This document shows, piece after piece, positions 33,166 through 53,119 of a stretch of 64,000 bases of DNA. The notes under the pieces are model-generated. The model made no database searches. It worked only from the letters and a program-made list of their open reading frames with translations, and had not been told where the DNA came from. Both the position numbers and the translations under genes were made by a program. This stretch comes from Okeania sp. SIO3I5 (GTDB lineage Bacteria > Cyanobacteriota > Cyanobacteriia > Cyanobacteriales > Microcoleaceae): assembly GCF_010672085.1 (NCBI RefSeq), contig NZ_JAAHHT010000017.1, positions 84,965-148,964 of the forward strand, in the 5' to 3' direction. Position 1 is the first letter of the stretch. Every line of letters starts with the position of its first letter.

Positions 33166-33538
33166 GGATGGCGATCGCTTTTGGGATAAAATTAATAGTT
33201 AGGGTTTGCTGAAAAAGTATTTTTGCTGTTTCTAGTAGTCAGTAGTCAGTAGTCAGTAGTCAGGAGAAATAGGAATTTTAGAGGAGATAGTCGGAAAAAT
33301 TGAGGGACAATTTTTCTGTCATAATCATCCCAAAATACTAGCTTTTTGGCGCTCAAAGCTCAAAAAGCTGGTACTTTTTAAGGACTCAAAAATGCTATAA
33401 CCTTTACCTGTCAATCCTTTTATATTTAATCAGCAAGCCCTAGTTAAGCAGCTTTCGAGCAACTAATAATATGACTGATATACTTTAGAGTTGTTGGGAA
33501 ATAAGGTAAAATGATTCAAGCAGAAATTGGCCAGAAAA
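33166..33538. other. Intergenic region
   Basis: Contains a GTAGTCAGTAGTCAGTAGTCAG direct repeat (six units near 33236-33262, 7 bases each), and CTTTTTGGCGCTCAAAGCTCAAAAAGC (an inverted pair). No gene is seen. Confidence 0.5.
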
Positions 33539-33690
33539 ATGCTAAATATTGAACGAGTCTTAAAACAAGATAGGTTACTCAGAACATTAACAGGATTAAA
33601 CCGTAAAGCATTTGAATCTTTGTTGGAGTTCTTTAATCAAATGTATGAGCAAACATTGCTGGACAAACCTCGTAAACGCTATAAATTAGC
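33539..33690 (+). pseudogene. 5' fragment of an IS5-type transposase gene
   Basis: MLNIERVLKQDRLLRTLTGL then NRKAFESLLEFFNQMYEQTL and DKPRKR is the typical N-terminal domain of IS5-group transposases. After about 48 residues it meets the end of the minus-strand gene at 33679 and loses similarity. The frame running on to 34003 is the antisense of that gene and not transposase. So only the 5' end of an IS remains. Confidence 0.75.
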
Positions 33691-34221
33691 TTCATCGGCC
33701 CTGGTTGCAACGTTTTTTAGTTTTTGCCCAGTGAATTCCAACTCCTTTTGTATCTGTTCGAGGCAACTCTCCACTGCCTTTTTCTTTTTGCTATCCCGTA
33801 GATTTAAGAAGATCGGGTATGCGATCGCTGCAACAAATGCTGTCCCCAGTATTTGCCTCAAAATGGCTTCTCTTAACCATGTTAGAATCAAGATTAGAGC
33901 GAGCGCCCAAGCAATTACTATGACTTCAGAAAGACGGAATCTAGGCAAGCTAAAATTAAAAGCTATGTTGTTACTTAAGCGCAGTTCTTCAAGTGCAGCT
34001 TGAAATTCTTCACCTAACGATGGATGTTTCCGCTTCAAGTTTCCTAACCATGCACCATTATAGTGAGTGCCGATTGACCAGTTATTTACTTGCGAATGAA
34101 TGATAGAGTTAATAAGTTCTGAATCTAACTTTTTATTTCTATCTATTTCTCGACGAATGCACGTCTCCACAACATCTAAAAATATTTTCCACTGAGATTC
34201 AAATTCTGATTCCCAACTCAT
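33679..34221 (-). CDS. Membrane protein with two helices, last gene of the dynamin cluster
   Basis: 180 aa. A soluble N-terminal half (WESEFESQWKIFLDVVETCI, VNNWSIGTHYNGAWLGNLKR) is followed by two close membrane helices (SEVIVIAWALALILILTWL and ILGTAFVAAIAYPIFL) and a helical tail (AVESCLEQIQKELEFTGQ). The ending ADEANL lies in sequence that joins an IS5-type fragment, so the last residues may not be original. Start MSWESEFE at 34221 follows AAAAAGGAGGTTATCAA, a strong ribosome site. It lies 96 bases after the canonical dynamin gene on the same strand. It could anchor or regulate the dynamins, though no family is recognised. Confidence 0.65.
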   Translation of the reverse strand: MSWESEFESQWKIFLDVVETCIRREIDRNKKLDSELINSIIHSQVNNWSIGTHYNGAWLGNLKRKHPSLGEEFQAALEELRLSNNIAFNFSLPRFRLSEVIVIAWALALILILTWLREAILRQILGTAFVAAIAYPIFLNLRDSKKKKAVESCLEQIQKELEFTGQKLKNVATRADEANL

Positions 34222-34317
34222 TTGATAACCTCCTTTTTAAGATTGTAGATCGCCTTTTGAAATTCCTGACACCAGTAAAATAAGTTACTATAGTCGATCT
34301 GGTACTTGATTTCTACG

Positions 34318-36444
34318 CTAGTCCTTAGCAGTTAATCCTTTCATCAAAAGGTTATTAAATTCATTCATTTCTTGAGGAGTGGCTTCTTTTCCAAAAACAT
34401 CGACATTAACGCGGTTATACAATTCAATCAACTTGTTACCAATCTTGTCTAGACGCTCTTTCTCTTTCTCTGCTGAAAAAGTGGCATCCTGTTTTCGGCG
34501 AATTATCTTTTCTTGTTGGGTGCAAGTCTCATCAATTTGTTGTTGAAGTATTTTAGTAGTGCGTTGAGCGAGTTGCTTGAATTGAGAGCTAACCTGTTGA
34601 CGAATTTCCTCTTCCTTATCAGATATGATTTGAGGAAGCTTTTCCTGCACCTTATTACCGATAGCTTCCCGGAGGCGCTTTTGAAATAAGTTCCCTTCCC
34701 ATCCGATATGCATTATATCTGCAACGATCATGAAAATCAGACTACCGAGCGGACCACCAAATAAGAATCCACCGACAATAGAAAGAATTTGAAACCCAAT
34801 ATGTCTTAGGAGACCCTGCCAATTTCCTGCACCTATCAGACCAGTAACCAAACCACTAGGATCGAAGGTTGCTACCCCTAAGGCTAATTGAGCAATTTTA
34901 ATGGCATTAGTTTTCTCGACGTCTAATTTTTCACCTGTAATTTTCACTCCTGAGAACATACTTTTGAGCAGAGCTAATTCTAGCTGAAAATCTCCAATGT
35001 CTTCCTCAATATTCTTTTTCATTGTTTCGATATCGTCCTCAAGAATCGTCGGTAACTTCTCTGCCCATTCAGTAAATTTTGCTTGCAGATATTTTTGAGT
35101 TTCACGCTGAACTAAATTTTTGATTTTCTCTCGATGTTGTTTACTTGGAATAGCTTTGAGAATTTCACCTATCGATAATTCCTCAAAATTTAAAGAATCT
35201 TGTAAATCTTTTTTTCTTTGGGCAAGCTCGTTAGTGTAGCGCAGCAAATTATTATATACTTTGCCACTAATAATTTCTCCCTGTTGACTTATACTTCTTT
35301 CGATCTTATCTTTTTGCTTTTCTAATTTGCTTAATTGTGTCTCTACTTCGCGCCGATTTTTTTCCAGTTTGTCTAACCCTAAATTCAGGGTAGCTTTCTG
35401 GTTAAAAATTTCTGGACAAACCTTACGAATGACCTGTTGTAATCCCTGAACATCAGGATCAAAAGCTGCCACGAACTTTTCATCACTGGTTAAAAATCGC
35501 TCTAGTTCCTCCTCTAAAGCCAAAACGCCGGATTCTTCGAGCATTGCCGTATTGGGAGAGTCTTGTGTCCGAGCATCTAAAGCTCCCTTAGCATTAACGA
35601 AAAAAACCCTGCGGTTGTAGAAATTCTCATCAAACTGACCATTATCGTTCAGAAAATAATTCTTGAGTTTCCCTAGATACCAAGCTTTGATGTCATCGAC
35701 CTCATCTTGATCAACTTGATTGATACGATTAATAACAAAGAATACGTTCTTCAACTGCTGCCCTTGTTCTCCAAAATCGGCTATAATTTTGTTCTCAGTT
35801 TCACTCAAAGGCTGAATCGCATTTAAAACGAAGATAATAGCCTGGCAGCGTTTGAGCCAATTAAAAGTCAAGTCCGTGCGGACTTGACTCTCTTCTAGTC
35901 CGGGAGAGTCAATGAGCTTGACTCCTTTGGCACAAATAGGATGCTGGCACTCTAACTGAGCATAATTAATCTTTGCAAATCTGTTAACAGATCCCGTCTG
36001 CTTAATAGTCTCTACATCTTTCTCATTCAGTCTAAATTCTTCTTTGAAAGACTCCCAACTAACGAAGCGAGGATGCTCGCGATCTTTTTCGTAAATGGCC
36101 ACATCCTGTCTCTCACCGTACACCAGAACAGTAATGATAGCAGTAGTAGGAATTGCCTTTGCTGGAAGGGTTTTACTTCCCAAAAGAGCGTTGATCAAGG
36201 TACTTTTACCGTTCTTAAACTCACCAAACACTAGCAGATTAAAAATCCCTTTTTGAATATCCTCGCTTCGTTTTTGTAAGATATCAGCTTCAGTTTCCAG
36301 ACCTAAACCCGGCTCAATTGTGCCTCCCGTCTCTAACTTCACCGGATTCTGTTCGTGCTTGCCAATAAGCGTTGAGACATCTTGCAAAATAGAAGATACC
36401 CTGGTGGTTTTTTGCTTGGCTGAAGCAAATCCATAAATGTTCAT
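34318..36444 (-). CDS. Bacterial dynamin-like GTPase with intact P-loop, 708 aa
   Basis: The GTPase domain has G1 GEFKNGKS (74-81), G2 Thr in PTTAII (99-104), G3 DSPGLEE (179-185) and G4 NRIN (239-242), where the usual last Asp is Asn. Long helical coiled coils (LDKLEKNRREVETQL, QQQIDETCTQQEKIIRRKQD) form the stalk. A hydrophobic segment near 560-590 (ILSIVGGFLFGGPLGSLIFM) is the expected membrane-insertion paddle. Bacterial dynamins remodel membranes and are used in cell division, stress repair and phage defence. ATG 36444 has GGAGGGA before it. It is the second dynamin of a co-directional pair, separated from the first by a 100-base MITE. Confidence 0.9.
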   Translation of the reverse strand: MNIYGFASAKQKTTRVSSILQDVSTLIGKHEQNPVKLETGGTIEPGLGLETEADILQKRSEDIQKGIFNLLVFGEFKNGKSTLINALLGSKTLPAKAIPTTAIITVLVYGERQDVAIYEKDREHPRFVSWESFKEEFRLNEKDVETIKQTGSVNRFAKINYAQLECQHPICAKGVKLIDSPGLEESQVRTDLTFNWLKRCQAIIFVLNAIQPLSETENKIIADFGEQGQQLKNVFFVINRINQVDQDEVDDIKAWYLGKLKNYFLNDNGQFDENFYNRRVFFVNAKGALDARTQDSPNTAMLEESGVLALEEELERFLTSDEKFVAAFDPDVQGLQQVIRKVCPEIFNQKATLNLGLDKLEKNRREVETQLSKLEKQKDKIERSISQQGEIISGKVYNNLLRYTNELAQRKKDLQDSLNFEELSIGEILKAIPSKQHREKIKNLVQRETQKYLQAKFTEWAEKLPTILEDDIETMKKNIEEDIGDFQLELALLKSMFSGVKITGEKLDVEKTNAIKIAQLALGVATFDPSGLVTGLIGAGNWQGLLRHIGFQILSIVGGFLFGGPLGSLIFMIVADIMHIGWEGNLFQKRLREAIGNKVQEKLPQIISDKEEEIRQQVSSQFKQLAQRTTKILQQQIDETCTQQEKIIRRKQDATFSAEKEKERLDKIGNKLIELYNRVNVDVFGKEATPQEMNEFNNLLMKGLTAKD

Positions 36445-36509
36445 AAATCTCCCTCCTGTAAACTTAGTAATTTTGTTATTTCTTGGTGAGAAGTTGAAAT
36501 TTCTGTAAC

Positions 36510-36609
36510 AGGACTTACGCAGGAGAACCCAGAAACCCGGTTTCTCGTAGACTTCTATTGCTCAAAACAACGATTTATCGTAGAAACCGGGTTTCTTTGC
36601 GTAAGTCCT
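36510..36609. repeat. MITE-like element between the two dynamin genes
   Basis: AGGACTTACGCA and TGCGTAAGTCCT ends, core AGAAACCCGGTTTCTCG and AGAAACCGGGTTTCT, 100 bases. It occupies most of the 186-base gap between the dynamin genes and could form a hairpin in the transcript. Confidence 0.9.
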
Positions 36610-36630
36610 ATGTAAGAGATACTCTCTCTG

Positions 36631-38397
36631 TTAACCTAATTTACCCAAAAGCCTTCTTAATTCAGGAATAGTTTCGCCAATCAATTCCTCGATCTCACCT
36701 TTTCTAGCAACCAACTCTTGATGAGATTCCACTGCCTTAGTCAGAACTTGATTAATCTTATTGACTTCCTCTGTATACAAATCATCAATTGCTTGCTTCA
36801 GTTCTTTGGTGAGTTCAGCGAACTGACTCTCAACTTGTTGCTGAATTGATTTCTCTAACTTCGGAAACTCCTTAATCGCTGACTCTAAGATGGCTTGTTT
36901 ATCACTTTGCCCGATCGCTGTCTTACCGAACTGACTAAACAATCCTCCAACCATACCAATAGCCTTGTCTATGAATGGAACACTAGCGATGGGTACAATT
37001 AATTTGCTAAATTTTGCGAATAACTGAACCCCTAATCCGCCTGCTAGAACACTGTAACCAACTACACTGGTGCTTTTTTGGGGCATCCAATATTTTCCTA
37101 GGTTAGTAGCAGTCGGATCGAATTCACCTACAAGGTTCTGGAAGTGAGTCACTTTATCCCCCAGCAATTCTTTGAGATCATCCTCGAACATCTCGCCAAT
37201 CAGCTTGATTTCATCACTCAGCTTGCTTCTTATTTCTTCCAATTCAAGGTTGAAGAAATCAGCCCAGATTCTCTCAAGATAGCCAGGAAGATACCGCCTA
37301 ACTTGAGTCACATCTTTAATTGGCATTACTTCACTGGGAAGTTGTTGCTCAAGGGCAAGGCTAAATCCTTCAATTTTCACGAAAAATTCCTCCTTGATTA
37401 GGGTATTAATGAAGCTTTCTGTTTGTTTCTGCGCCCTTTGAATGCGGCTTTTAAGCCATTGACTTTGTAAGTCACTTTTGTCTCGTAGTTCCTCAAGTTC
37501 AGTTTCTTTTGTCACAATCAGAGCGTTCTGACGAGTTGCTCTTTCCTCAACCTCAGTCAGACAAATTTCTGCTGCCTGAAAAATAGCTATTGACTTCAGG
37601 AAACTGTGTTGCTCAACTAAGTCAATTTTCACTAGCTGACTCAATACAGCATATCCACTATCTGTAGATGTATTACCAGAGCTAATTTCGTTGCTAGCCT
37701 GAAGTGCAGAAAATTCTATTAATACTGGCTGGCTCTCAAAAGGTCCAAGAAATGCCCGAACCAGTTCAGAAATTGATGAACGTTCCTCTTCTGAGACGCG
37801 ATCAATCTGATTCAGCAGAATAGCAACCCTTTCTAGTCCTAAATTAGGTTTCAGGATATCCCTGATAAATTTCTTTTCCTGTTCGGACAAAATAGCAGTT
37901 GCATTGAGAACCAAAACCGCATACTCGGTTCCAGCCAAAAGTTCTTTCCACTGAGCTTCAGACTTTTTATTGTCAAGACTCTCGATTCTGAGAGCGCAGG
38001 TTTTCAGTAGGTTACAGTTTGTCTTTACCTCAATTCCCAGGTACTCCCTTGCTTCTATGTCAGGACTGGTTAGAAAAGTTTTCAAGTTTTCTACAGGAAT
38101 TACTGTTCTGATACCGTTTTGGGCAAAAACTTCGACAGGACTCGGTTCTCCATAGCTAACACTCAAGCTAATAGGTGCTTTAGGTATAGATGATGTTGGT
38201 AGCAGATTTGGCTGTTCTAAGAGAACATTGGCAACTGAGAACCGTCCTGAAACAGTTGCTCCAACTATTAAGAGTCGCAATTTAGATGCATGGGACTGAT
38301 TTTTGACGGCTTCGATCAATTCAATCACATCTGGCTCTCTAAGTACAGTCACCGCCTCTTTGACTCGATCTAGAAATGATTGGACTGTTTCTGACAT
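36631..38397 (-). CDS. Dynamin-like protein with degenerate nucleotide site
   Basis: I chose ATG 38397 (MSETVQSFLDRVKEAVTVLR) since GAGG lies six bases before it. The frame reaches a GTG at 38436. The layout equals its neighbour: GTPase fold, long stalk helices, and a hydrophobic paddle (VGYSVLAGGLGVQLFAKFSK, PIASVPFIDKAIGMVGGLF). The P-loop reads GATVSGRFS where GxxxxGK(S/T) is needed, so the Lys is Arg and the Ser/Thr is Phe. The G3 DxPG motif is absent (IESLDNKKS in its place). G4 NQID (NQIDRVSEEE) is kept. It is probably unable to hydrolyse GTP and may act as a partner of the intact dynamin, as in bacterial two-dynamin assemblies. Confidence 0.85.
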   Translation of the reverse strand: MSETVQSFLDRVKEAVTVLREPDVIELIEAVKNQSHASKLRLLIVGATVSGRFSVANVLLEQPNLLPTSSIPKAPISLSVSYGEPSPVEVFAQNGIRTVIPVENLKTFLTSPDIEAREYLGIEVKTNCNLLKTCALRIESLDNKKSEAQWKELLAGTEYAVLVLNATAILSEQEKKFIRDILKPNLGLERVAILLNQIDRVSEEERSSISELVRAFLGPFESQPVLIEFSALQASNEISSGNTSTDSGYAVLSQLVKIDLVEQHSFLKSIAIFQAAEICLTEVEERATRQNALIVTKETELEELRDKSDLQSQWLKSRIQRAQKQTESFINTLIKEEFFVKIEGFSLALEQQLPSEVMPIKDVTQVRRYLPGYLERIWADFFNLELEEIRSKLSDEIKLIGEMFEDDLKELLGDKVTHFQNLVGEFDPTATNLGKYWMPQKSTSVVGYSVLAGGLGVQLFAKFSKLIVPIASVPFIDKAIGMVGGLFSQFGKTAIGQSDKQAILESAIKEFPKLEKSIQQQVESQFAELTKELKQAIDDLYTEEVNKINQVLTKAVESHQELVARKGEIEELIGETIPELRRLLGKLG

Positions 38398-38438
38398 GAT
38401 GACCTCGATTGCAATAGTTAAAGGTTTCTTCTCCACGA

Positions 38439-39344
38439 CTAGAGCTGAATAAGCTGGTTAACTTGGCGATCTAATTCCTCTCGACTCAGCAGATTTTGAC
38501 CATGTGGTTCTGGTAGATTGATTAACTTATAGTAAAGTTCAGAATTAGCAAAAAGCCTAAGTGCTTTAATTCGCTTTGGTATTGAAAGTTGGCTTTTAAC
38601 AATACTATTCAATTTGGCTGGATAGAGATACTCTTCCATTGCTTCAGACTGACTGAGATAGCGATCGATGTCAATCTGCTTAATATCTGCCATACCTGTT
38701 GCAATTTTCAGTAAAGCGGTTTCAGCGATATTAATGTCACTACAGCATATCAGTCCAGCGCGATCGGCCGTTAGTTCTGAACGCCGAGACCAAGCCATTA
38801 AGGCGACACCGGCAACCTTCAGCAAGGTGTCTACAGGGAGACCGAATGGCTGGATATCTTCATAAACACCTGTCAGGAATGATACCAGAGTGCGGTAAAG
38901 TATTTGGCCTGTGGCAATGTGTCCGCATTCGCACCCGATAACAAAATTTGCCTCTGGGGTGGAGAATGATTGGAGCAAGTCAGGCGAAACATAGATGAAT
39001 ACATAACTATCTGTTCCTGCTGAATATGTAATATTTATGTCTTGTTTGAGAACTGTATGAGGGATCGGGATCGCTAAAGTCTTTGCACAGTGATGTAAGA
39101 TTTGAAAGAGTTCGGGGTATGATTTGGAGTTAATAGGAACCATGCTAATAAGATCGGCTCCAAACTTAACGCTGACTAAAAAGTCTATAGCCTTTTCTAT
39201 CAGTGGTTTAGCTATATTGGAATTCAAGGTACGAATTATCCACTCGTCCATCGGATGACCATAAGGTATTATTTTTCCCCTTTCAGTATCCTGAATGTAT
39301 TCCTGAAAGCTTATGAACTTATGGTCAGAGTATTTGATAGCCAT
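38439..39344 (-). CDS. M48-type metallopeptidase homologue with CECGH in place of HExxH
   Basis: 301 aa. A cytoplasmic or membrane-associated M48/HtpX-like fold: SPDLLQSFSTPEANFVIGCE then CGHIATGQILYRTL, and AWSRRSELTADRAGLICC. In M48 enzymes the zinc site is HExxH with a distant Glu in SELxADRxG. Here Glu139, His142 and Glu190 are kept but the first His is Cys138. It may be inactive, or use Cys as a ligand. It begins the dynamin cluster, 41 bases before the first dynamin gene. No clear signal peptide. ATG 39344 starts MAIKYSDHKFISFQ. Confidence 0.8.
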   Translation of the reverse strand: MAIKYSDHKFISFQEYIQDTERGKIIPYGHPMDEWIIRTLNSNIAKPLIEKAIDFLVSVKFGADLISMVPINSKSYPELFQILHHCAKTLAIPIPHTVLKQDINITYSAGTDSYVFIYVSPDLLQSFSTPEANFVIGCECGHIATGQILYRTLVSFLTGVYEDIQPFGLPVDTLLKVAGVALMAWSRRSELTADRAGLICCSDINIAETALLKIATGMADIKQIDIDRYLSQSEAMEEYLYPAKLNSIVKSQLSIPKRIKALRLFANSELYYKLINLPEPHGQNLLSREELDRQVNQLIQL

Positions 39345-39499
39345 CTTCTTTTTACTTTACTTTAATTAAGCGACAAGTTTAATAGACATCTCCGAAAATT
39401 AAAAATATAATCAATTCTTATCCAGAAATTCTCAATTACTTCTCACTATTGCCTGTTATATGTTCCCTGTTCCCTCTTTTCTGGAGATGTGTAATAGAT

Positions 39500-39533
39500 T
39501 GGGTGGGTAAATCTCACAATATTTACCCACCCC
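39500..39533 (-). terminator. Hairpin after the large kinase gene
   Basis: GGGTGGGTAAAT pairs perfectly with ATTTACCCACCC across an 8-base loop, just after the kinase stop. The T-run is weak. It suggests that the kinase and the protease-dynamin genes are separate transcripts. Confidence 0.6.
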
Positions 39534-39539
39534 ACTATT

Positions 39540-42500
39540 TTAGGAATACAATCTAGCTACAGAAACAGTAAGTTCTCCCTCATTATCATCAGGATAACTA
39601 TCAAAGAAAAGGGCACAAAGAGTAACCGTTTCCAGAACTTCCAATGTTAATGTTTCATTATATCCATTCAAAGTTGACCAAGTTTGCTCGACTGGAATCT
39701 TCGTCTTTTTATTCTTCATTTTTCCACCGTAAATCCAAAGTAATACAAATGGCTCGCCAGATGGAGAAACATTAGAACCATAGCCAAATGTACCACTCTT
39801 AATCCGCACAATATAAATTCCTGGTTCAAGAGTTTTAGATACACCAGTTTCCTGCAACTGCCTCATCTGTTCATCATTTAGTAAATAGCAATTGTTACGA
39901 CTATGAACAGTCAGATGTTGAATTTCACAGTTACCAGGGGTAATCTTACTTGTTTCTGTCGTTGTTTCCTCTTTGCTTTCCGAGCGTTGAGAAATTGCAC
40001 CCGCACCAATAGCAGTTACACCAGGAAGAATTGTTTCTGCTGCGTCAAGATGATCAATTTGAGTCGAAACAGCTATTCGTAGAGGATTAGAACGAGCAAT
40101 ACTCAACCACTGCAAATTATCAGTTACATAACCAATTTCTGCTAAATAATCAACATACCCAAGAGAACTCACATTGATTGGTATTTCTTGTTTCTGGCTA
40201 GATTCATCACAATTGTACTCTTGTACATTTTGAACATTCTGTGAGTCTATGTCAATGTCTGTAACATCGAAAATCCGCAATTGGTATTGCTGTCCACCTT
40301 GTTGTTTGGCTGCATCTTTAGCAGTTTGAGAAACTCCCCAATGAACATAAGCATTCTGACTACCACGAGGAACTATAGTAATCCAACATGATTTTAATGC
40401 TGACTCTGGAATCACTGCTGTAGTGGGAGTTACATCTGGCTCTGTAGTTTTGATATCATCAATTTCGATGGCGGATATGCGGATACGATTAGAACGAGCT
40501 AACTTCAACCATTCCCCATCATCAGTAACATAACCTATTTCCGCTTGATATTCGCGATCGCTGGCAAAAACAGGTACTTGCATTTCCTGAGTTGATTCTT
40601 GACAATCATAAGCTTGTACATTGTAGGCCGGTTTTGTCTCTAGATCAATATCTGTCACATCATAAACTCGCAACTGATATTGCTCTCCCCCCTGTTCTTT
40701 TAAAGCATTGTGTGCTGCTTCGGGAACTTCCCAAGCTACCATCATGTTTTCTGCATCATCAGGAGTAATAGTAATTTTACAAGGAGGTAATGCCCATTTT
40801 ACTCCTCCTACCTTCACTAAATCTGGTTCTTTTGCTACCACGAACTCTGTATTGTTCTCATCTTCTAGCATTCTAACCCGGTTAGAACGAGACAATGGTA
40901 ACCATCGCTCGTCATCGGTAACATAGCCAATTTCCGCTTGATATTCGCGATCGAACAGTAAGTTTCCTATTTGCCACTGCTGATTCGACTCTTCAGAATC
41001 ATAATATTTGACACTATGAGCAGGTTGTGAGTCTAGGTCTATATCTGTCACATCATAAACCCGCAGTTGATATTGTTTACCTCCATGCAATTTAGCTGCT
41101 TCTTTATCAGCTTCTGGTACTGACCAAGTTGCTGATGCTGTTTGAGCTACCCCAGAGGTAAGAGTTATTCTACTATTTTTGGCAAGGTTTGCCCATGCTG
41201 CTAATAATCCTGCTACTCCTGCTACTCCTACTAATCCTGCCATACCTATACCAGGAGTCCTCTGTTCTGGTTCTACTTCTTTCGTTGGAATTTCTATCTG
41301 TGTTTCTGGAGTTACTACTGCTACTTCTGGCGCTTTGATTTTTACTTGGTTAGAACGAGCTAACTTTAACCATTCGCCATCATGCGTCACATAACCTATT
41401 TGGGCACTATAATCGCGCTCACTCTCCAGATTTTCTATGAGCTTTTCTGTAGTTGATTCATCACAATCATACTCTTGTATACTTTGCTCCGGTTCTGCAT
41501 CAGGATCAATATCTGTTACATCATAAACCCGCAGTTGATATTGCTCACCTCCATGAGATTTGGCTGCTTCTTTGTCAACTTCTGGTACTAACCAAGTTGC
41601 TGATGCTGTTTGAGCTACCCCAGAGGTAAGAGTTATTCGACTATTTTTTTCAGTGTTTGCCCATGCTGCTAATAATCCTGCTACTCCTGCTAATCCTGCT
41701 ATTCCTGCTATTGGTGCTATACCTATACCAGGAGTCCTCTGTTCTGACTCTATTTCTGTAATTGGAACTTCTAGAGTTGTTTCTGGAGTTACTACTGCTA
41801 CTTCTGGCGCTTTGATTTTGATCTGGTTTGAGAGAGCTAATTTCAACCATTCACCATCATTCGTCACATAACCTATTTCCGCAGTATAGTCGCGCTCACT
41901 CTCCAGATTTTCTATAAGCTTTTCTGTAGTTGATTCATCACAATCATACTCTTGTATACTTTGATCCGGTTCTGAATCTGGCTCAATATCTGTTACATCA
42001 TAAACCCGCAGTTGATATTGCTCACCTCCATGGGATTTAGCTGCTTCTTTGTCAGCTTCTGGTACTAACCAAGTTGCTAATGCTGTTTGATTTTCCCCTG
42101 AACTTAGACTTATTCGACTATTTTTTTCTTGAGTTGCCCACGCTGCTAATAATCCTGCTACTCCTGCTAATCCTGCTATTCCTGCTACTCCTGCTCCTAT
42201 ACCAGGAGTCCTCTGTTCTGACTCTATTTCTGTAATTGGAACTTCTAGAGTTGTTTCTGGAGTTACTACTGCTACTTCTGGTGCTTTAATTTTGATTTGG
42301 TTTGAGAGAGCTAATTTTAACCATTCACCATCATGCGTCACATAACCTATTTCCGCACTATAGTCTCGCTCACTCTCCAGATTTTCGATCACCCTTTCTG
42401 TAGTTGATTCCTCACAATCATACTCTTGTACACTTTGAGCCGGTTCTGCACCTAGCTCAATATCTGTTACATCATAAACCCGCAGTTGATATTTCTCACC

Positions 42501-45500
42501 TCCATGAGATTTGGCTGCTTCTTTGTCCGCTTCTGGTACTAACCAAGTTGCTGATGCTGTTTGATTTTCCCCAGGAGTTAGACTTATTTGACTATTTTTT
42601 TCAGTATTTGCCCAACCTGCTAATAATCCCGCGAATCCTACTAATCCTGCTACCCCTGCTAAACCTATACCCGAACTGCTTTGTTCTGGTTCTACTTCTG
42701 TAATTGGAGTTTCTATCTCTGTTTCTGTAGTTGGGGTTTCTATACTTGTTTCTGGAGTTACTTCTGGCGCTTTAATTCTGAGTGGGTTTGAACGAGCTAA
42801 TTTCAACCATTCGCCACCCCTTGTTACATAACCTATTTCCGCAGTATAGTCGCGCTCACTCTCTAGATTTTCTATCACCCTTTCTGTGGTTGATTCATCA
42901 CAATCATACTCTTGTACACTTTGAGTTAGTTCCGCATCTGGATCAAGCTCTGTGACATCATAAACCCGCAGTTGATATTTCTCACCTCCATGAGATTTGG
43001 CTGCTTCTTTGTCCGCTTCTGGTACTAACCAAGTTGCTGATGCTGTTTGATTTTCCCCAGGACTTAGACTTATTTGACTATTTTTAGTTTGGTTCGCCCA
43101 CGCTGCTAATAATCCCGCGAATCCTACTAATCCTGCTATTGGTGCTATATTTCCCAAACTGGTTTGTTCCGACTCTACTGCTTTTGTAGTTGGAGTTTCT
43201 ATCTCTACTTCTGTAGTTGGGGTTTCTATATCTAGTTCTGTCGTTGGAATTTCTATCTGTGTTTCTGGAGTTACTACTGCTACTTCTGGCGCTTTAATTC
43301 TGATAGAGTTTGAACGAGCTAACTTTAACCATTCGCCACCCCTTGTTACATAACCTATTTCCGCAGTATAGTCGCGCTCACTCTCTAGATTTTCTATCAC
43401 CCTTTCTGTGGTTGATTCATCACAATCATACTCTTGTACACTTTGAGTTAGTTCCGCATCTGGATCAAGCTCTGTGACATCATAAACCCGCAGTTGATAT
43501 TGCTCTCCTCCATGAGATTTAGCTGCTTCTTTGTCCGCTTCTGGTACTAACCAAGTTGCTGATGCTGTTTGATTTTCCCCAACACTTAGACTTATTTGAC
43601 TATTTTTTTCAGTATTTGCCCAACCTGCTAATAATCCCGCGAATCCTACTAATCCTGCTACCCCTGCTACACCTATACCCGAACTGCTTTGTTCTGGTTC
43701 TACTTCTTTCGTTGGAATTTCTATCTGTGTTTCTGAAGTTACTGCTGCTAGTTCTGGCGCTTTAATTCTGATAGAGTTTGAACGAGCTAACTTTAACCAT
43801 TCGCCACCCCTTGTTACATAACCTATTTCCGCAGTATAGTCGCGCTCACTCTCCAGATTTTCTATCACCCTTTCTGTGGTTGATTCATCACAATCATACT
43901 CTTGTATACTTTGAGTTAGTTCTGCATCTGGTTTAAGCTCTGTCACATCATAAACCCGCAGTTGATATTGCTCACCTCCGTGTGATTTCGCTGCTTCTTT
44001 GTCCGCTTCTGGTACTAACCAAGTTGCTGATGCTGTTTGATTTTCCCCAGGACTTAGACTTATTTGACTATTTTTTTCAGTATTTGCCCAACCTGCTAAT
44101 AATCCCGCGAATCCTACTAATCCTGCTAATGTTTCCACTCCCAGACAAAAACCACCAACACCACCTAACAAAAAGAAAAAACCTATACTCGCAAAAAACT
44201 CTAATAAATTAGGTTGACTTTGACTCACCACAATAAACTCTAAAAATAACTTGGGAAATATATTTAATTGCTCCAAACTAACAAAAACTATCGCAGTCAA
44301 ACCAGCAACCCACAAAGCATAAATCGAACCATGCTTTCTTAAACCCAAACCCAAAGTCATTACACCAGTCGCCACCCCCACAGACAACTTACCCATAATT
44401 TCCAGAATAATTAAATCCTCCGATGTCGTGTAGAAATTCGTAGCAACTTGGGAAAATTGCCAACATAATCCACCTAAAATATAACCAATCGTTCCCATAA
44501 ATGCAGTCCGAAAATAACGACGACGCTGACCCAAACCCCCCACATCAGTTAAACCGACTCCCGTTCCCAAACCTGCTAAAGCAAAAACAATTATCTCCGG
44601 ACCGATAGTCAAACGAACACCCGACATCATCAACAAAAGGTTAGTAAAAAAACTCAAACTAGCAAAGCGATCGCCTACTACTGACCAATAAGCAAAAATT
44701 AATCCGAATATCGCTCCAATACTTCCCCCGACTCCTCCCAGTATCATTTCCCAAGTTGTATCGACACAACCTGCAACTGTTTGATTAACTATTTGAGATG
44801 CAAAATGAGACAGTCTACTAATATTCTCAGCAAAATTCCTCAATTGAGTTGCCAAGAAATTTTTTATCCTTGTGCGAAAAGCAGATATTCCCAGAGACCT
44901 CTTTTGCAGTCGATAAATTTTAGCTAAACGGACTTGTACTTCTGCTGCTGTAGCTGGTCGTTGAGCTGCATCTAAATTAACCATATCATCCAATAACTTA
45001 GCCAAACTTGGATTAATAGGTTTCAACTGTCGCCACCTCAATTTACCAGTAGAGGGGTCTTCCAAGTCTGCCGGATATTGACCAGTTAGTAAATGAATGC
45101 AAGTCCGACCTAAAGCATAAAAATCTGTAAAAGGACCTATTTCACCTCCAGCAATTTGTTCTGGGGGAGTATATCCAGGGGAAACTAACCGAGTTGTACT
45201 GCGTTTTGCCACAGTTTCTTTAGGTTTGATTCTATAATTATTCATTTGTTTCACTCCCCCAAAGTCAATAATTACCAGTTGACCTCTCTTTTTTCTTTGA
45301 TGATGAGAAAAACTGCGGGAGAATTTTGTCAGGGAGGAAACTTCCACTCCTCGCAACATTAAATTAGATGGTTTAATGTCCCTGTGAATAATTTTTCGGC
45401 GGTGCAGTTCCAATAAAATTTCTATTGCTTGAGAAAGCCAGTTGATGACATAAATATCGGGACATCCTTGGGGATGTTGCTCAACAATTTCCTCCAGGGT

Positions 45501-45917
45501 ACAACCATCAATTTTTTCCATGACCAAACATGGCAAAAACCATTGGCTCGAATGGCCAACTTCTGACTGACTAATTCGCTTGCGGAGGTGAAAATAGTCT
45601 TCTGGTTCGACTTGGGGAATACCAGAATGACGTAAATTGGCTAAGACCAAAGCTTCCTGGTCAAATAGTTCGAGAGCTTTAGGGGATGTTTCAAGTAATA
45701 CTTTGAGAATACGTTCGGTTTGAGTTTTTTGGTCCCAAACAATGTAGATTTTTGCAAATCCACCTGTACTTATTCTTCGCAGGGGAATGTAGCGATCGTT
45801 GAGTAGGAGTGGGGTGCCACAACTTTGACAAAATTTATTGCCCCATGGCTGGATTGGATTTGGACAATGGGGGTTTATACAATGGATTTTCGGTAATCGG
45901 GACTGATTTACAGTCAT
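39540..45917 (-). CDS. Giant membrane Ser/Thr protein kinase with DUF4912-like repeats, 2125 aa
   Basis: A zinc-ribbon (C13, C18, C30, C33) precedes a Hanks-type kinase at about 40-335 with a glycine loop ISTGGFAKIY, Lys72, HRDIKPSN (178-185) and DFGG (218-221). Residues about 385-660 hold seven or eight membrane helices, many Gly-rich. The rest is some nine copies of a roughly 110-residue domain with HGGEQYQLRVYDVTDI, a YDCDEST turn and ERDYTAEIGYVT, matching DUF4912. Hydrophobic runs (GLVGFAGLLAGWAN) and Thr/Glu/Pro linkers join the first seven. A final unique domain (residues about 1990-2125, with YIVRIKSGTFGYGS) closes it. Catalytic residues are intact, so it is likely an active kinase whose repeats sense or bind a ligand. 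It lies upstream of, and in the same direction as, the protease-dynamin genes. Confidence 0.88.
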   Translation of the reverse strand: MTVNQSRLPKIHCINPHCPNPIQPWGNKFCQSCGTPLLLNDRYIPLRRISTGGFAKIYIVWDQKTQTERILKVLLETSPKALELFDQEALVLANLRHSGIPQVEPEDYFHLRKRISQSEVGHSSQWFLPCLVMEKIDGCTLEEIVEQHPQGCPDIYVINWLSQAIEILLELHRRKIIHRDIKPSNLMLRGVEVSSLTKFSRSFSHHQRKKRGQLVIIDFGGVKQMNNYRIKPKETVAKRSTTRLVSPGYTPPEQIAGGEIGPFTDFYALGRTCIHLLTGQYPADLEDPSTGKLRWRQLKPINPSLAKLLDDMVNLDAAQRPATAAEVQVRLAKIYRLQKRSLGISAFRTRIKNFLATQLRNFAENISRLSHFASQIVNQTVAGCVDTTWEMILGGVGGSIGAIFGLIFAYWSVVGDRFASLSFFTNLLLMMSGVRLTIGPEIIVFALAGLGTGVGLTDVGGLGQRRRYFRTAFMGTIGYILGGLCWQFSQVATNFYTTSEDLIILEIMGKLSVGVATGVMTLGLGLRKHGSIYALWVAGLTAIVFVSLEQLNIFPKLFLEFIVVSQSQPNLLEFFASIGFFFLLGGVGGFCLGVETLAGLVGFAGLLAGWANTEKNSQISLSPGENQTASATWLVPEADKEAAKSHGGEQYQLRVYDVTELKPDAELTQSIQEYDCDESTTERVIENLESERDYTAEIGYVTRGGEWLKLARSNSIRIKAPELAAVTSETQIEIPTKEVEPEQSSSGIGVAGVAGLVGFAGLLAGWANTEKNSQISLSVGENQTASATWLVPEADKEAAKSHGGEQYQLRVYDVTELDPDAELTQSVQEYDCDESTTERVIENLESERDYTAEIGYVTRGGEWLKLARSNSIRIKAPEVAVVTPETQIEIPTTELDIETPTTEVEIETPTTKAVESEQTSLGNIAPIAGLVGFAGLLAAWANQTKNSQISLSPGENQTASATWLVPEADKEAAKSHGGEKYQLRVYDVTELDPDAELTQSVQEYDCDESTTERVIENLESERDYTAEIGYVTRGGEWLKLARSNPLRIKAPEVTPETSIETPTTETEIETPITEVEPEQSSSGIGLAGVAGLVGFAGLLAGWANTEKNSQISLTPGENQTASATWLVPEADKEAAKSHGGEKYQLRVYDVTDIELGAEPAQSVQEYDCEESTTERVIENLESERDYSAEIGYVTHDGEWLKLALSNQIKIKAPEVAVVTPETTLEVPITEIESEQRTPGIGAGVAGIAGLAGVAGLLAAWATQEKNSRISLSSGENQTALATWLVPEADKEAAKSHGGEQYQLRVYDVTDIEPDSEPDQSIQEYDCDESTTEKLIENLESERDYTAEIGYVTNDGEWLKLALSNQIKIKAPEVAVVTPETTLEVPITEIESEQRTPGIGIAPIAGIAGLAGVAGLLAAWANTEKNSRITLTSGVAQTASATWLVPEVDKEAAKSHGGEQYQLRVYDVTDIDPDAEPEQSIQEYDCDESTTEKLIENLESERDYSAQIGYVTHDGEWLKLARSNQVKIKAPEVAVVTPETQIEIPTKEVEPEQRTPGIGMAGLVGVAGVAGLLAAWANLAKNSRITLTSGVAQTASATWSVPEADKEAAKLHGGKQYQLRVYDVTDIDLDSQPAHSVKYYDSEESNQQWQIGNLLFDREYQAEIGYVTDDERWLPLSRSNRVRMLEDENNTEFVVAKEPDLVKVGGVKWALPPCKITITPDDAENMMVAWEVPEAAHNALKEQGGEQYQLRVYDVTDIDLETKPAYNVQAYDCQESTQEMQVPVFASDREYQAEIGYVTDDGEWLKLARSNRIRISAIEIDDIKTTEPDVTPTTAVIPESALKSCWITIVPRGSQNAYVHWGVSQTAKDAAKQQGGQQYQLRIFDVTDIDIDSQNVQNVQEYNCDESSQKQEIPINVSSLGYVDYLAEIGYVTDNLQWLSIARSNPLRIAVSTQIDHLDAAETILPGVTAIGAGAISQRSESKEETTTETSKITPGNCEIQHLTVHSRNNCYLLNDEQMRQLQETGVSKTLEPGIYIVRIKSGTFGYGSNVSPSGEPFVLLWIYGGKMKNKKTKIPVEQTWSTLNGYNETLTLEVLETVTLCALFFDSYPDDNEGELTVSVARLYS
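41050..44110. repeat. Tandem coding repeats inside the kinase gene
   Basis: Seven units of about 470-515 bases, marked by CTGCTAATAATCC at 44095, 43624, 43109, 42619, 42148, 41668 and 41197, are close to identical at DNA level over hundreds of bases. The last two DUF4912-like copies (40060-40850) are much more diverged. Linker lengths differ by multiples of three. Confidence 0.9.
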
Positions 45918-50695: not shown

Positions 50696-53119
50696 CTATT
50701 CCCTTAGCTTCAAAGCATTCATAGCTGCCTTAATTAAATTAAAAAAACGAGGTTGAGAAACATCGACTTCTCGAGCATTATTCCGACTTTTGCCTAATAA
50801 ACCAATTCTTTTTCCCTGTTGAATTGCTAAGACTTCGCCACGGGAATTTCTGATTCTTAATTCTGGTTTATCTCCTATTTGATAAAGACTGCAAGTATAG
50901 AGGCGATCGCTGTAATAAAATTCTGCTTTTTGAGGCAAGTTTGAAGAGTTTTGATTAGCAGAAACTTTTGTAGGTAAACGTACACCAACTAATTCTAATT
51001 CAATCGAAGTTTGACCATTAAAAGTATTTTCGCGCAATTTATAAGCAATATCAACTAATTGAGGTAGAGGAAAATAATCTCCCCAACGCCAAGCGATCGC
51101 CTTGATTATTTCTGATTTAATTAAAGTTAATTTTATATGTCCTGCACCAACAATTCTCTGTTCAGCAACTCGTACATTGGGAGTCCAAAAAATAGGAGAT
51201 TTATTTTCAATTCCACAGGGATGAAGTAAATCTATTTGATGATAAAGGTCAAAATTTAGTTCCTTAAAATCTGCTTCAGCATCAATAGTAACTAAAGGTT
51301 TTAAGTGATGAATTTCTAAACATTGATGAGCAAATTCACTCAAACGGGAGCGAAATTTATCTAAATTTTCTCCAAGCAAAGAAAAACCCCCTGCTGCTTT
51401 ATGACCACCATATTTTCCTAATAGGTTGTCACAAAATTGTAGCGCCTCAAAAACATGAAATTCTGGAATGCCACGAGCAGAACCGCGAATTGTGGAAGCT
51501 AACATCATCCGTGTATCCGTGGCCAAATCCGTGTGTGCCGTGGCCAAATCCGTGTGTGCCGTGGCCAAATCTGTGTCTTGCTCTTGCTCTTCCCGAATAG
51601 TAGAGGTTGGAGTTGTGGATGTAGGGTGTGCAGGCGTCATCCCTGCATCCATCCCTGCATCCATCCGTGCATCCGTGGCCAAATCCGTGTGTGCCGTGGC
51701 CAAATCTGTGTCTTGCTCTTGCTCTTCCCGAATAGTAGAGGTTGGAGTTGTGGATGCAGAGTGTGGAAACATCATCCGTGCATCCATCCCTGCATCCATC
51801 CGTGTATCCGTGGCCAAATCCGTGTGTGCCGTGGCCAAATCCGTGTGTGCCGTGGCCAAATCTGTGTCTTGCTCTTGCTCTTCTTCATAACTACCGATAA
51901 AAACAGGCACCCCATAACGTTCCACCAACCGGGAAGCAACAATACCAATAACCCCATGATGCCATCCTGGTTGCACAACTACTAACACTCTTTCCTCCTG
52001 TAAATTTATCTGACTTTCCTCGCACCAAGCGATCGCCTCTTGTTCAATTTCTGCACACAATTCCTGCCGTGTTTGATTAATTTCTTGACACTGTTTTGCC
52101 CTTGCTTCCGCCACTTCTTTGTCATCTGTCGTTAAAAGTTCAATGACAATTTGTGGATCGGCAATACGTCCGACAGCATTAATGCGCGGACCTAGACGAA
52201 ACCCGATATCATCTGGTTTCAGAGATTTTTGATTATTGGTTTGTTTCAAGTTTCCCTGTTCTTGTGCTTTGACATTAGATACTTGAATTAATGCTCGTAC
52301 TCCCGCTAACTGGGAGCGAGGTAAAAGTTGCAACCCTCGTTTAACCCAGCGACGGTTGACTCCAGTTAAGGGTGCTAAGTCAGCGATCGTACCCAGGGTG
52401 AATAATTCTAACAGTGGGTTGCTTAAACCTGGAAGTTTGTCGAGACGTTTTGCCAGACATAATGCCAAAATATAGGCAACTCCCACACCTGCAACACTTC
52501 GATAAGGAGAAGTTTCAGAAATTAGTTTGGGGTTGAGAATAGCGTTAGCGGGTGGAAGGTTTGGTGGAATATCGTGGTGATCGGTAATAATAACGTTTAA
52601 ACCTAGTTCCCGCGCTTTGGCAATAGGTTGATAAGCAGCGATACCATTGTCTACAGTAAGAATGAGACTCACTCCTTCTTGATGAAATTCTTCGACAATG
52701 CGTTCGTTGATACCATAACCTTCTTGCATCCGACTGGGGATAGCGTAGTCAACTTTTGCTCCCAGGTGTTTGCAGGTGCGCAATAATAAGGCAGTGCTAG
52801 TCATACCATCTGCATCGTAGTCGCCACAGATAGCAATTTTTTGGTTTTGGGAAATTGTGGTTTGTAATAAGTTGAGAGCGATCTCTAAGTCGGGAAATTC
52901 TTGTATTGGAGAGGGTAGTTTGATTGACTCAGGATCTAAAAATGCTTGCGCTTGTTCGATAGTAGATAGATCGCGGTTAATGAGACTTTGAGCTATTAAA
53001 GGTGATATTTCTAGGGTTTTGGCTAATTTTTTAGTAATTTCTGGTTGTTCTGGATGTATCAACCACCTTTGGTTAGGTAGTTTTTGTTGTTGGGTTTGGG
53101 AGTGAGATTTATTTTGCAT
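50696..53119 (-). CDS. recJ: Single-stranded-DNA-specific exonuclease RecJ with repeat-derived insert
   Basis: 807 aa against the roughly 580-700 usual. RecJ degrades ssDNA 5'-3' in recombination and mismatch repair. DHH motifs: CGDYDADGMTSTALLL (98-113), LTVDNGI (154-160), ITDHHDIP (178-185) and the GxxPRINAVGRIAD region (310-321). The DHHA1 domain has HHGVIGIVASRLVERYGVPV (387-406) and later GKYGGHKAAGGFSL. Between VFIGSYEE (406-413) and STIRGSARGIPEFHVFEAL, normally almost joined, lie about 126 extra residues (TDLATAHTDLAT, RMDAGMDA, STTPTSTIREEQEQD repeats). All motifs are intact on both sides and the frame is kept, so the protein may work with a flexible loop. Confidence 0.93.
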   Translation of the reverse strand: MQNKSHSQTQQQKLPNQRWLIHPEQPEITKKLAKTLEISPLIAQSLINRDLSTIEQAQAFLDPESIKLPSPIQEFPDLEIALNLLQTTISQNQKIAICGDYDADGMTSTALLLRTCKHLGAKVDYAIPSRMQEGYGINERIVEEFHQEGVSLILTVDNGIAAYQPIAKARELGLNVIITDHHDIPPNLPPANAILNPKLISETSPYRSVAGVGVAYILALCLAKRLDKLPGLSNPLLELFTLGTIADLAPLTGVNRRWVKRGLQLLPRSQLAGVRALIQVSNVKAQEQGNLKQTNNQKSLKPDDIGFRLGPRINAVGRIADPQIVIELLTTDDKEVAEARAKQCQEINQTRQELCAEIEQEAIAWCEESQINLQEERVLVVVQPGWHHGVIGIVASRLVERYGVPVFIGSYEEEQEQDTDLATAHTDLATAHTDLATDTRMDAGMDARMMFPHSASTTPTSTIREEQEQDTDLATAHTDLATDARMDAGMDAGMTPAHPTSTTPTSTIREEQEQDTDLATAHTDLATAHTDLATDTRMMLASTIRGSARGIPEFHVFEALQFCDNLLGKYGGHKAAGGFSLLGENLDKFRSRLSEFAHQCLEIHHLKPLVTIDAEADFKELNFDLYHQIDLLHPCGIENKSPIFWTPNVRVAEQRIVGAGHIKLTLIKSEIIKAIAWRWGDYFPLPQLVDIAYKLRENTFNGQTSIELELVGVRLPTKVSANQNSSNLPQKAEFYYSDRLYTCSLYQIGDKPELRIRNSRGEVLAIQQGKRIGLLGKSRNNAREVDVSQPRFFNLIKAAMNALKLRE
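51497..51880. repeat. In-frame repeat expansion inside recJ
   Basis: Three larger units of about 130-150 bases (marked by CTTGCTCTTGCTCTTCCCGA and GTGGATGTAGG/GTGGATGCAGA), each containing copies of CCGTGGCCAAATCCGTGTGTG and CATCCGTGCATCC. The sequence is the same as the half-unit ATCCGTGCATCCGTGGCAAAATCCGTGTC of the intergenic array at 12262-13345. Lengths keep the recJ frame. Confidence 0.9.

Follow-up and report, generated by a model that had tools for sequence, protein, structure and literature searches.

Background

Most bacterial dynamins act as pairs, as in Campylobacter, where Cj-DLP1/2 are an operonic dynamin pair whose hetero-tetramer tethers membranes and in which both partners are GTPases activated by assembly (PMC6104087). 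In Bacillus subtilis, the two units that act together are fused in one membrane dynamin, DynA, which delays phage lysis and possibly gives late protection to the membrane (PMC8844932). Cyanobacteria carry tandem dynamin genes, including BDLP1 and its tandem partner BDLP2, and in the tandem pair LeoA/LeoBC one partner comes in pieces, LeoBC being split inside its G domain with the P-loop kept (PMC4159319). Tandem dynamins, and LeoA/LeoBC as defence candidates (PADLOC), are already known, and in mitochondria the M48-family protein OMA1 is linked to a fusion-type dynamin, OPA1.

Here, we describe four adjacent genes in a window of 64,000 nucleotides from Okeania sp. SIO3I5 (contig NZ_JAAHHT010000017.1), which encode an M48 peptidase homologue, a dynamin relative with a broken P-loop (hereafter pseudo-dynamin), an active-type dynamin and a small membrane protein. 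An initial annotation had proposed that these genes might form a membrane surveillance or phage-defence unit. In the literature searched, no system was found to combine an M48 homologue and a detached membrane module with a pseudo-GTPase partner that is conserved.

Layout of the locus

The four genes are minus-strand open reading frames (ORFs) spanning positions 33679-39344. The initial annotation had described one-strand genes with gaps of 41, about 190 and about 100 bases, and the ORFs agree, giving 41 bases between the M48 homologue and the pseudo-dynamin, 186 between the pseudo-dynamin and the dynamin, and 96 between the dynamin and the small gene, with good ribosome sites upstream of the latter two genes. 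The first gap is counted from an ATG at 38397. The pseudo-dynamin ORF stays open to a GTG at 38436 (36631-38436, 601 aa), and the internal ATG is most likely the start, since three orthologues start there and the GTG is without a visible ribosome site.

Between the stop of an upstream kinase gene and the start of the M48 gene lies a 12-pair hairpin (39501..39532) with no T run on the kinase strand, which may separate the kinase transcript from the module. A weak promoter-like site upstream of the M48 gene (39407..39435, minus strand, 9 of 12 match) is no evidence of function, as shuffled sequence has more promoter-like matches than the region does. At the other end, a transposase-like N-terminal fragment (33539..33690, plus strand), identified by eye and with no Pfam match, ends at the 3' end of the small gene. 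A dispersed repeat of about 250 bases, possibly a miniature mobile element, also adjoins the module (33196-33446) and has some 40 or more copies in the genome at 71-94% identity.

The neighbours of the locus are rbcL, which the module adjoins, recJ, an RND transporter and the kinase, that is, ordinary chromosome with no defence island. The Ser/Thr kinase (39540-45917, minus strand, 2125 aa) has a 4-Cys prefix and nine DUF4912 repeats; its homologue is only about 607 aa long in six congeners, which suggests that this genome has added the repeats. The kinase was considered as a fifth member of the module and rejected, being absent from the corresponding locus of Nostoc foliaceum FACHB-393 (hereafter Nostoc), kept in congeners without the module, and divided from the module by the hairpin. 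Further away, the RecJ-like gene (50696-53119, minus strand) is extended in frame by a low-complexity insert in which DLATAHT / EEQEQDTDLAT units recur.

The four proteins

The M48 homologue (38439..39344, minus strand, 301 aa) was rightly named in the initial annotation, as Peptidase_M48 (PF01435) matches it at 3.8e-11, over the curated Pfam cut-off; hydropathy gives no transmembrane segment. On motif inspection, the HExxH zinc motif reads CECGH, with the first His lost, and the third-ligand region (SRRSE-TADRAG) is kept. The zinc motif is RECGH in Nostoc and an intact HECGH in two other relatives, G451 and Phorm 6. With the first zinc His replaced by Cys here and by Arg in Nostoc, catalytic activity is doubtful in these two proteins, whereas it is possible in G451, where the His is present. 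Profile scores mark the module M48 as a distinct subfamily: across 149 relatives, the protein described here scores 619 bits, the pieces on two contigs of G320 (Phorm 6) score 341 and 146, and the next protein scores 74, and the subfamily was not found apart from the module among these relatives. The Phorm 6 gene is cut: both contigs end within it, and the inverted repeat at their ends, GACCTCTTGCAAAA, is what an insertion sequence would be expected to show. M48 matches on plasmids of Thermus, Tsukamurella, Rhodococcus and Bernardetia were set aside; their neighbours include no annotated dynamin, and a single large neighbour protein that was tested had no Pfam match.

The pseudo-dynamin (36631..38397, minus strand, 588 aa) has no significant match in Pfam and no significant sequence match in the PDB. 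By profile comparison it aligns to dynamins over 486 columns (hhalign 98.9%, E 1.6e-17), and in its G1 motif, GATVSGRFS (GxxxxGRFS), Arg stands in place of the P-loop Lys, in line with the broken P-loop of the initial annotation. DxPG is absent and NQxD is kept as NQID, so that by its G motifs the protein is a pseudo-GTPase relative of dynamins. The change from Lys to Arg is present in all six known pseudo-dynamins (GRFS in four, GRAS in G451 and GRSS in G497), and DxPG is missing and NQxD kept in the four that were scored for these motifs. Four sequences gave a poor AlphaFold2 model (pLDDT 49), which was left out of account.

The dynamin (34318..36444, minus strand, 708 aa) matches Dynamin_N (2.8e-25) and Dynamin-like_hel_bact (1.4e-21) in Pfam, and its motifs are intact, with G1 as GEFKNGKST (GxxxxGKST) followed by DSPG, so the good P-loop that had been noted is borne out. 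A hydrophobic, paddle-like segment lies at about residues 553-580. The closest solved relative in a PDB search is BDLP1 of Nostoc punctiforme (2J68, E 1.8e-49, residues 12-675), and the PADLOC models LeoA and LeoBC match at 1.4e-25 and 1.1e-15. With a G domain carrying P-loop and DxPG and with a bacterial helical domain, the protein is of the BDLP1/LeoA type, the LeoA-type dynamin of the PADLOC Leo dynamins. The whole genome (10.5 Mb) has a rich dynamin set of 15 Dynamin_N matches, some of which are pieces of one gene. Elsewhere, contig C220 of genome G302 (L057 7550-20000 and L058) has four clustered dynamin genes together with a Xer-like recombinase, and a similar three-dynamin set occurs in G380 (L060).

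The small membrane protein (33679..34221, minus strand, 180 aa) has nothing significant in Pfam. It had been described as having two membrane helices; by hydropathy, residues 94-121 are clearly transmembrane and another segment is so more weakly, which leaves the second helix plausible, not certain. Together with a predicted model (pLDDT 79), which had no convincing PDB match, hydropathy gives a layout of a helical domain, a transmembrane helix and a long C-terminal helix. A profile built from seven relatives finds this small module in 4 of 292 genomes across the phylum, exactly those with this dynamin type (Fisher p 3.4e-9, phylogeny ignored). A second dynamin in G109 and in G197 carries this module as its C-terminus. 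G119, a member of the genus of G109, encodes the module in a gene of its own, immediately downstream of that dynamin. By this fusion and separation, the small protein is best described as a detachable, here stand-alone, C-terminal membrane module of a partner dynamin. The Nostoc gene for the small protein continues into tandemly repeated GKNTSASPIP units, which extend to the end of the contig (L065 14360-14766).

All four genes are under purifying selection, with dN/dS (NG86) of about 0.2-0.4 for the one sequence pair compared, window against Nostoc, at dS 0.6-1.1: 0.21 for the M48 homologue, 0.24 for the pseudo-dynamin, 0.27 for the dynamin and 0.38 for the small protein. The shared P-loop lesion, together with the value for the pseudo-dynamin, argues that the dead partner is a conserved state and not random decay.

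Distribution and genomic context

Nostoc, which belongs to another cyanobacterial family, has the same four genes in the same order, with identities to the window of 64% (M48), 68% (pseudo-dynamin), 58% (dynamin) and 59% (small protein). The initial annotation had proposed gene order as the test of a functional unit and had taken an order unique to this genome as counting against one. The identical order in Nostoc answers that objection, and the unit is further supported by an M48 subfamily that is found only with the module and a small module that is found only with this dynamin type. By these comparisons, the four genes are a real unit shared between distant strains.

All four genes stand in order in two genomes only, the window and Nostoc, and M48 adjoins pseudo-dynamin or dynamin in four. 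In Phorm 6, M48 and pseudo-dynamin are followed by two joined dynamin units and the contig end, and in G451 M48 and pseudo-dynamin lie at a contig end. In the metagenome-assembled genome PMM_0086, pseudo-dynamin and dynamin are accompanied by a further, third dynamin and a NACHT-HEAT protein, and the place of M48 next to the pseudo-dynamin is taken by a weakly HD-like fragment at the contig edge. In G497 the locus is decayed, the pseudo-dynamin following only the last 40 residues of M48 with no adjoining dynamin. The partial break-up in G497 and the missing M48 in PMM_0086 indicate that the unit erodes and varies. Dynamin and small module also occur without the other two genes, decaying at one locus shared by four relatives (G302, G308, G311 and G313), and a small-gene fragment survives at this locus elsewhere in the genome studied here.

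Among 291 other genomes sampled across the phylum, the pseudo-dynamin has no orthologue, and the matches there are weak ones to dynamins in general. Six congeners are also without the module. They retain the kinase and, as far as their contigs reach, rbcL; beyond the kinase their flank is not collinear, and no clean empty site was found. As the scans relied on strict peptide patterns, on one query or on a small profile, all these counts are lower bounds. The module is rare and is read as accessory and horizontally moving.

Some relatives of the module lie with defence genes or with DNA resembling mobile elements, unlike the copy in the window. In G197, a cassette consisting of a DUF4145-like domain fused to a dynamin, followed by a dynamin with the membrane module, sits directly between BrxC, PglX, SduA, BrxH, PglZ and BrxA on one side and DruF, DruL and DruE on the other, that is, inside a BREX-Shedu-Druantia island. 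This cassette is without M48 and pseudo-dynamin and has the DUF4145-like domain instead, so labelled for its RxxGNxxxH motif and a weak Pfam match; the N-terminal domain also matches a type I restriction enzyme model and, at 4e-23, the PADLOC candidate family PDC-M16A. The Nostoc copy adjoins a VapE-like (primase) protein, ParA and an integrase, and the G451 copy adjoins ParA, an integrase and a NACHT protein, while the contexts in G109, G119 and G497 are ordinary, with no defence island. NACHT-HEAT (STAND) proteins stand beside two pseudo-dynamin loci (L067 5945-9358 and L113 540-3401), one of them with HTH and NCC-H and the other with NNH2. NACHT genes are common in filamentous cyanobacteria, so this adjacency is weak evidence.

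Interpretation and alternatives

The module is probably an anti-phage membrane-surveillance dynamin system, the link to phage coming from the context of its relatives, namely the defence island, the contigs with integrase and ParA, the NACHT neighbours and the patchy presence. In its full form, to which we give about an even chance, this reading is of one mobile module in which a dynamin polymer, a non-hydrolysing partner, an anchor and an M48 subunit act together, most likely against membrane damage by phage. The active BDLP1-type dynamin would form GTP-driven polymers on the inside of the cell membrane, and the degenerate dynamin would be the non-hydrolysing partner that sets their assembly or disassembly. 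The small protein, fused C-terminally in other dynamins of the group, would be a membrane anchor or receptor, and the M48 homologue would serve as a soluble binding subunit, in some strains probably proteolytic, through which a signal or target is coupled to the polymer. The module would most likely serve to respond to membrane damage in phage attack, after which the membrane may be stabilised and lysis delayed, as with DynA of B. subtilis, or an effector may be triggered. The initial annotation had inferred that the protease homologue or the membrane protein senses damage; the M48 copy of the window is without a zinc ligand, and the small protein is more readily understood as a membrane module detached from a partner dynamin than as a damage sensor.

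It is conceivable, if rather unlikely, that the module maintains the envelope or thylakoid and has no link to phage: when light, cold or chemicals stress the cell, the dynamins would reshape or mend internal membranes, and the M48 homologue would remove or hold damaged membrane proteins. Such a role would suit the ordinary chromosomal context of the window, the suggested function of BDLP1, the closest solved relative, in photosynthetic membrane fusion, and the membrane quality control in which M48/HtpX relatives act. It fits poorly with a gene set so rare and patchy, the pseudo-dynamin having no orthologue in the sampled genomes or the six congeners, with copies beside integrase and ParA, and with a second locus at which dynamin and small gene are decaying in four relatives and have left a fragment in this genome. 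Control of the kind exerted in mitochondria, where the M48 enzyme OMA1 cuts the dynamin OPA1, would make the M48 homologue an active zinc protease that cuts the dynamin or the anchor after stress and so switches the polymer. The position of M48 beside pseudo-dynamin or dynamin in four genomes and the intact HECGH of G451 and Phorm 6 speak for this; we consider it improbable, given that the first zinc His is lost here and in Nostoc, yet the gene is under purifying selection, that the Phorm 6 gene is interrupted at insertion-sequence-like ends, and that the pairing need not share ancestry with OMA1-OPA1.

ParA and integrase beside the Nostoc and G451 copies, together with the VapE-like primase in Nostoc, would also suit a function for a plasmid or mobile element, for instance keeping out competing elements or stabilising the carrier, in which case the copy in this chromosome would be a relic of integration. 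We regard this as quite improbable, as no copy of the pseudo-dynamin or module was found in viral contigs or 72,556 plasmid records and the relative in a defence island argues for a host-protective role. That unrelated genes are adjacent by chance is scarcely credible: all four stand in order in only two genomes and G497 is partly broken up, but the same order with similar divergence recurs in another family, the fusion and fission of the small module and its co-occurrence with the dynamin contradict chance for these two genes, and the pair of M48 and pseudo-dynamin in four genomes contradicts it for the others.

To turn to the described systems, the active dynamin is homologous to N. punctiforme BDLP1 (2J68/2J69) over its full length, at the E-value given above; the sequence comparison was with BDLP1 alone, and for BDLP1/BDLP2 no M48, conserved dead partner or separate membrane module appears in the literature searched. 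LeoA/LeoBC also has a partner in pieces, but there it is split in the G domain into LeoC and LeoB with the P-loop kept, whereas the partner here is a single ORF with a broken P-loop, the detached piece is the C-terminal membrane module, and an M48 homologue is added. DynA, with both units in one protein, has no M48 or separate anchor, and the Campylobacter pair has no M48 or dead partner. From OMA1-OPA1 the module differs in that the M48 homologues of the window and Nostoc lack one zinc ligand. In the DO-GTPase conflict systems a DO-GTPase has a GAP1 partner (PMC7159879), and the GTPase of the module belongs by Pfam to the dynamin family, which would speak against a system of that kind.

More tentatively, and at less than even chances, the module and its relatives may represent a modular cyanobacterial defence family, that is, a dynamin/pseudo-dynamin immune or membrane-guard system with exchangeable front ends (the M48 homologue, the DUF4145-like domain or another), a detachable anchor and a dead GTPase as regulatory partner. 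A pair that is conserved with the GTPase motifs of one partner lost would permit a direct test of the role of the second partner in dynamin pairs. Further, the dynamin tool-kit gains an M48 homologue and a detachable membrane anchor, and BDLP1-type cyanobacterial dynamins become linked to defence islands.
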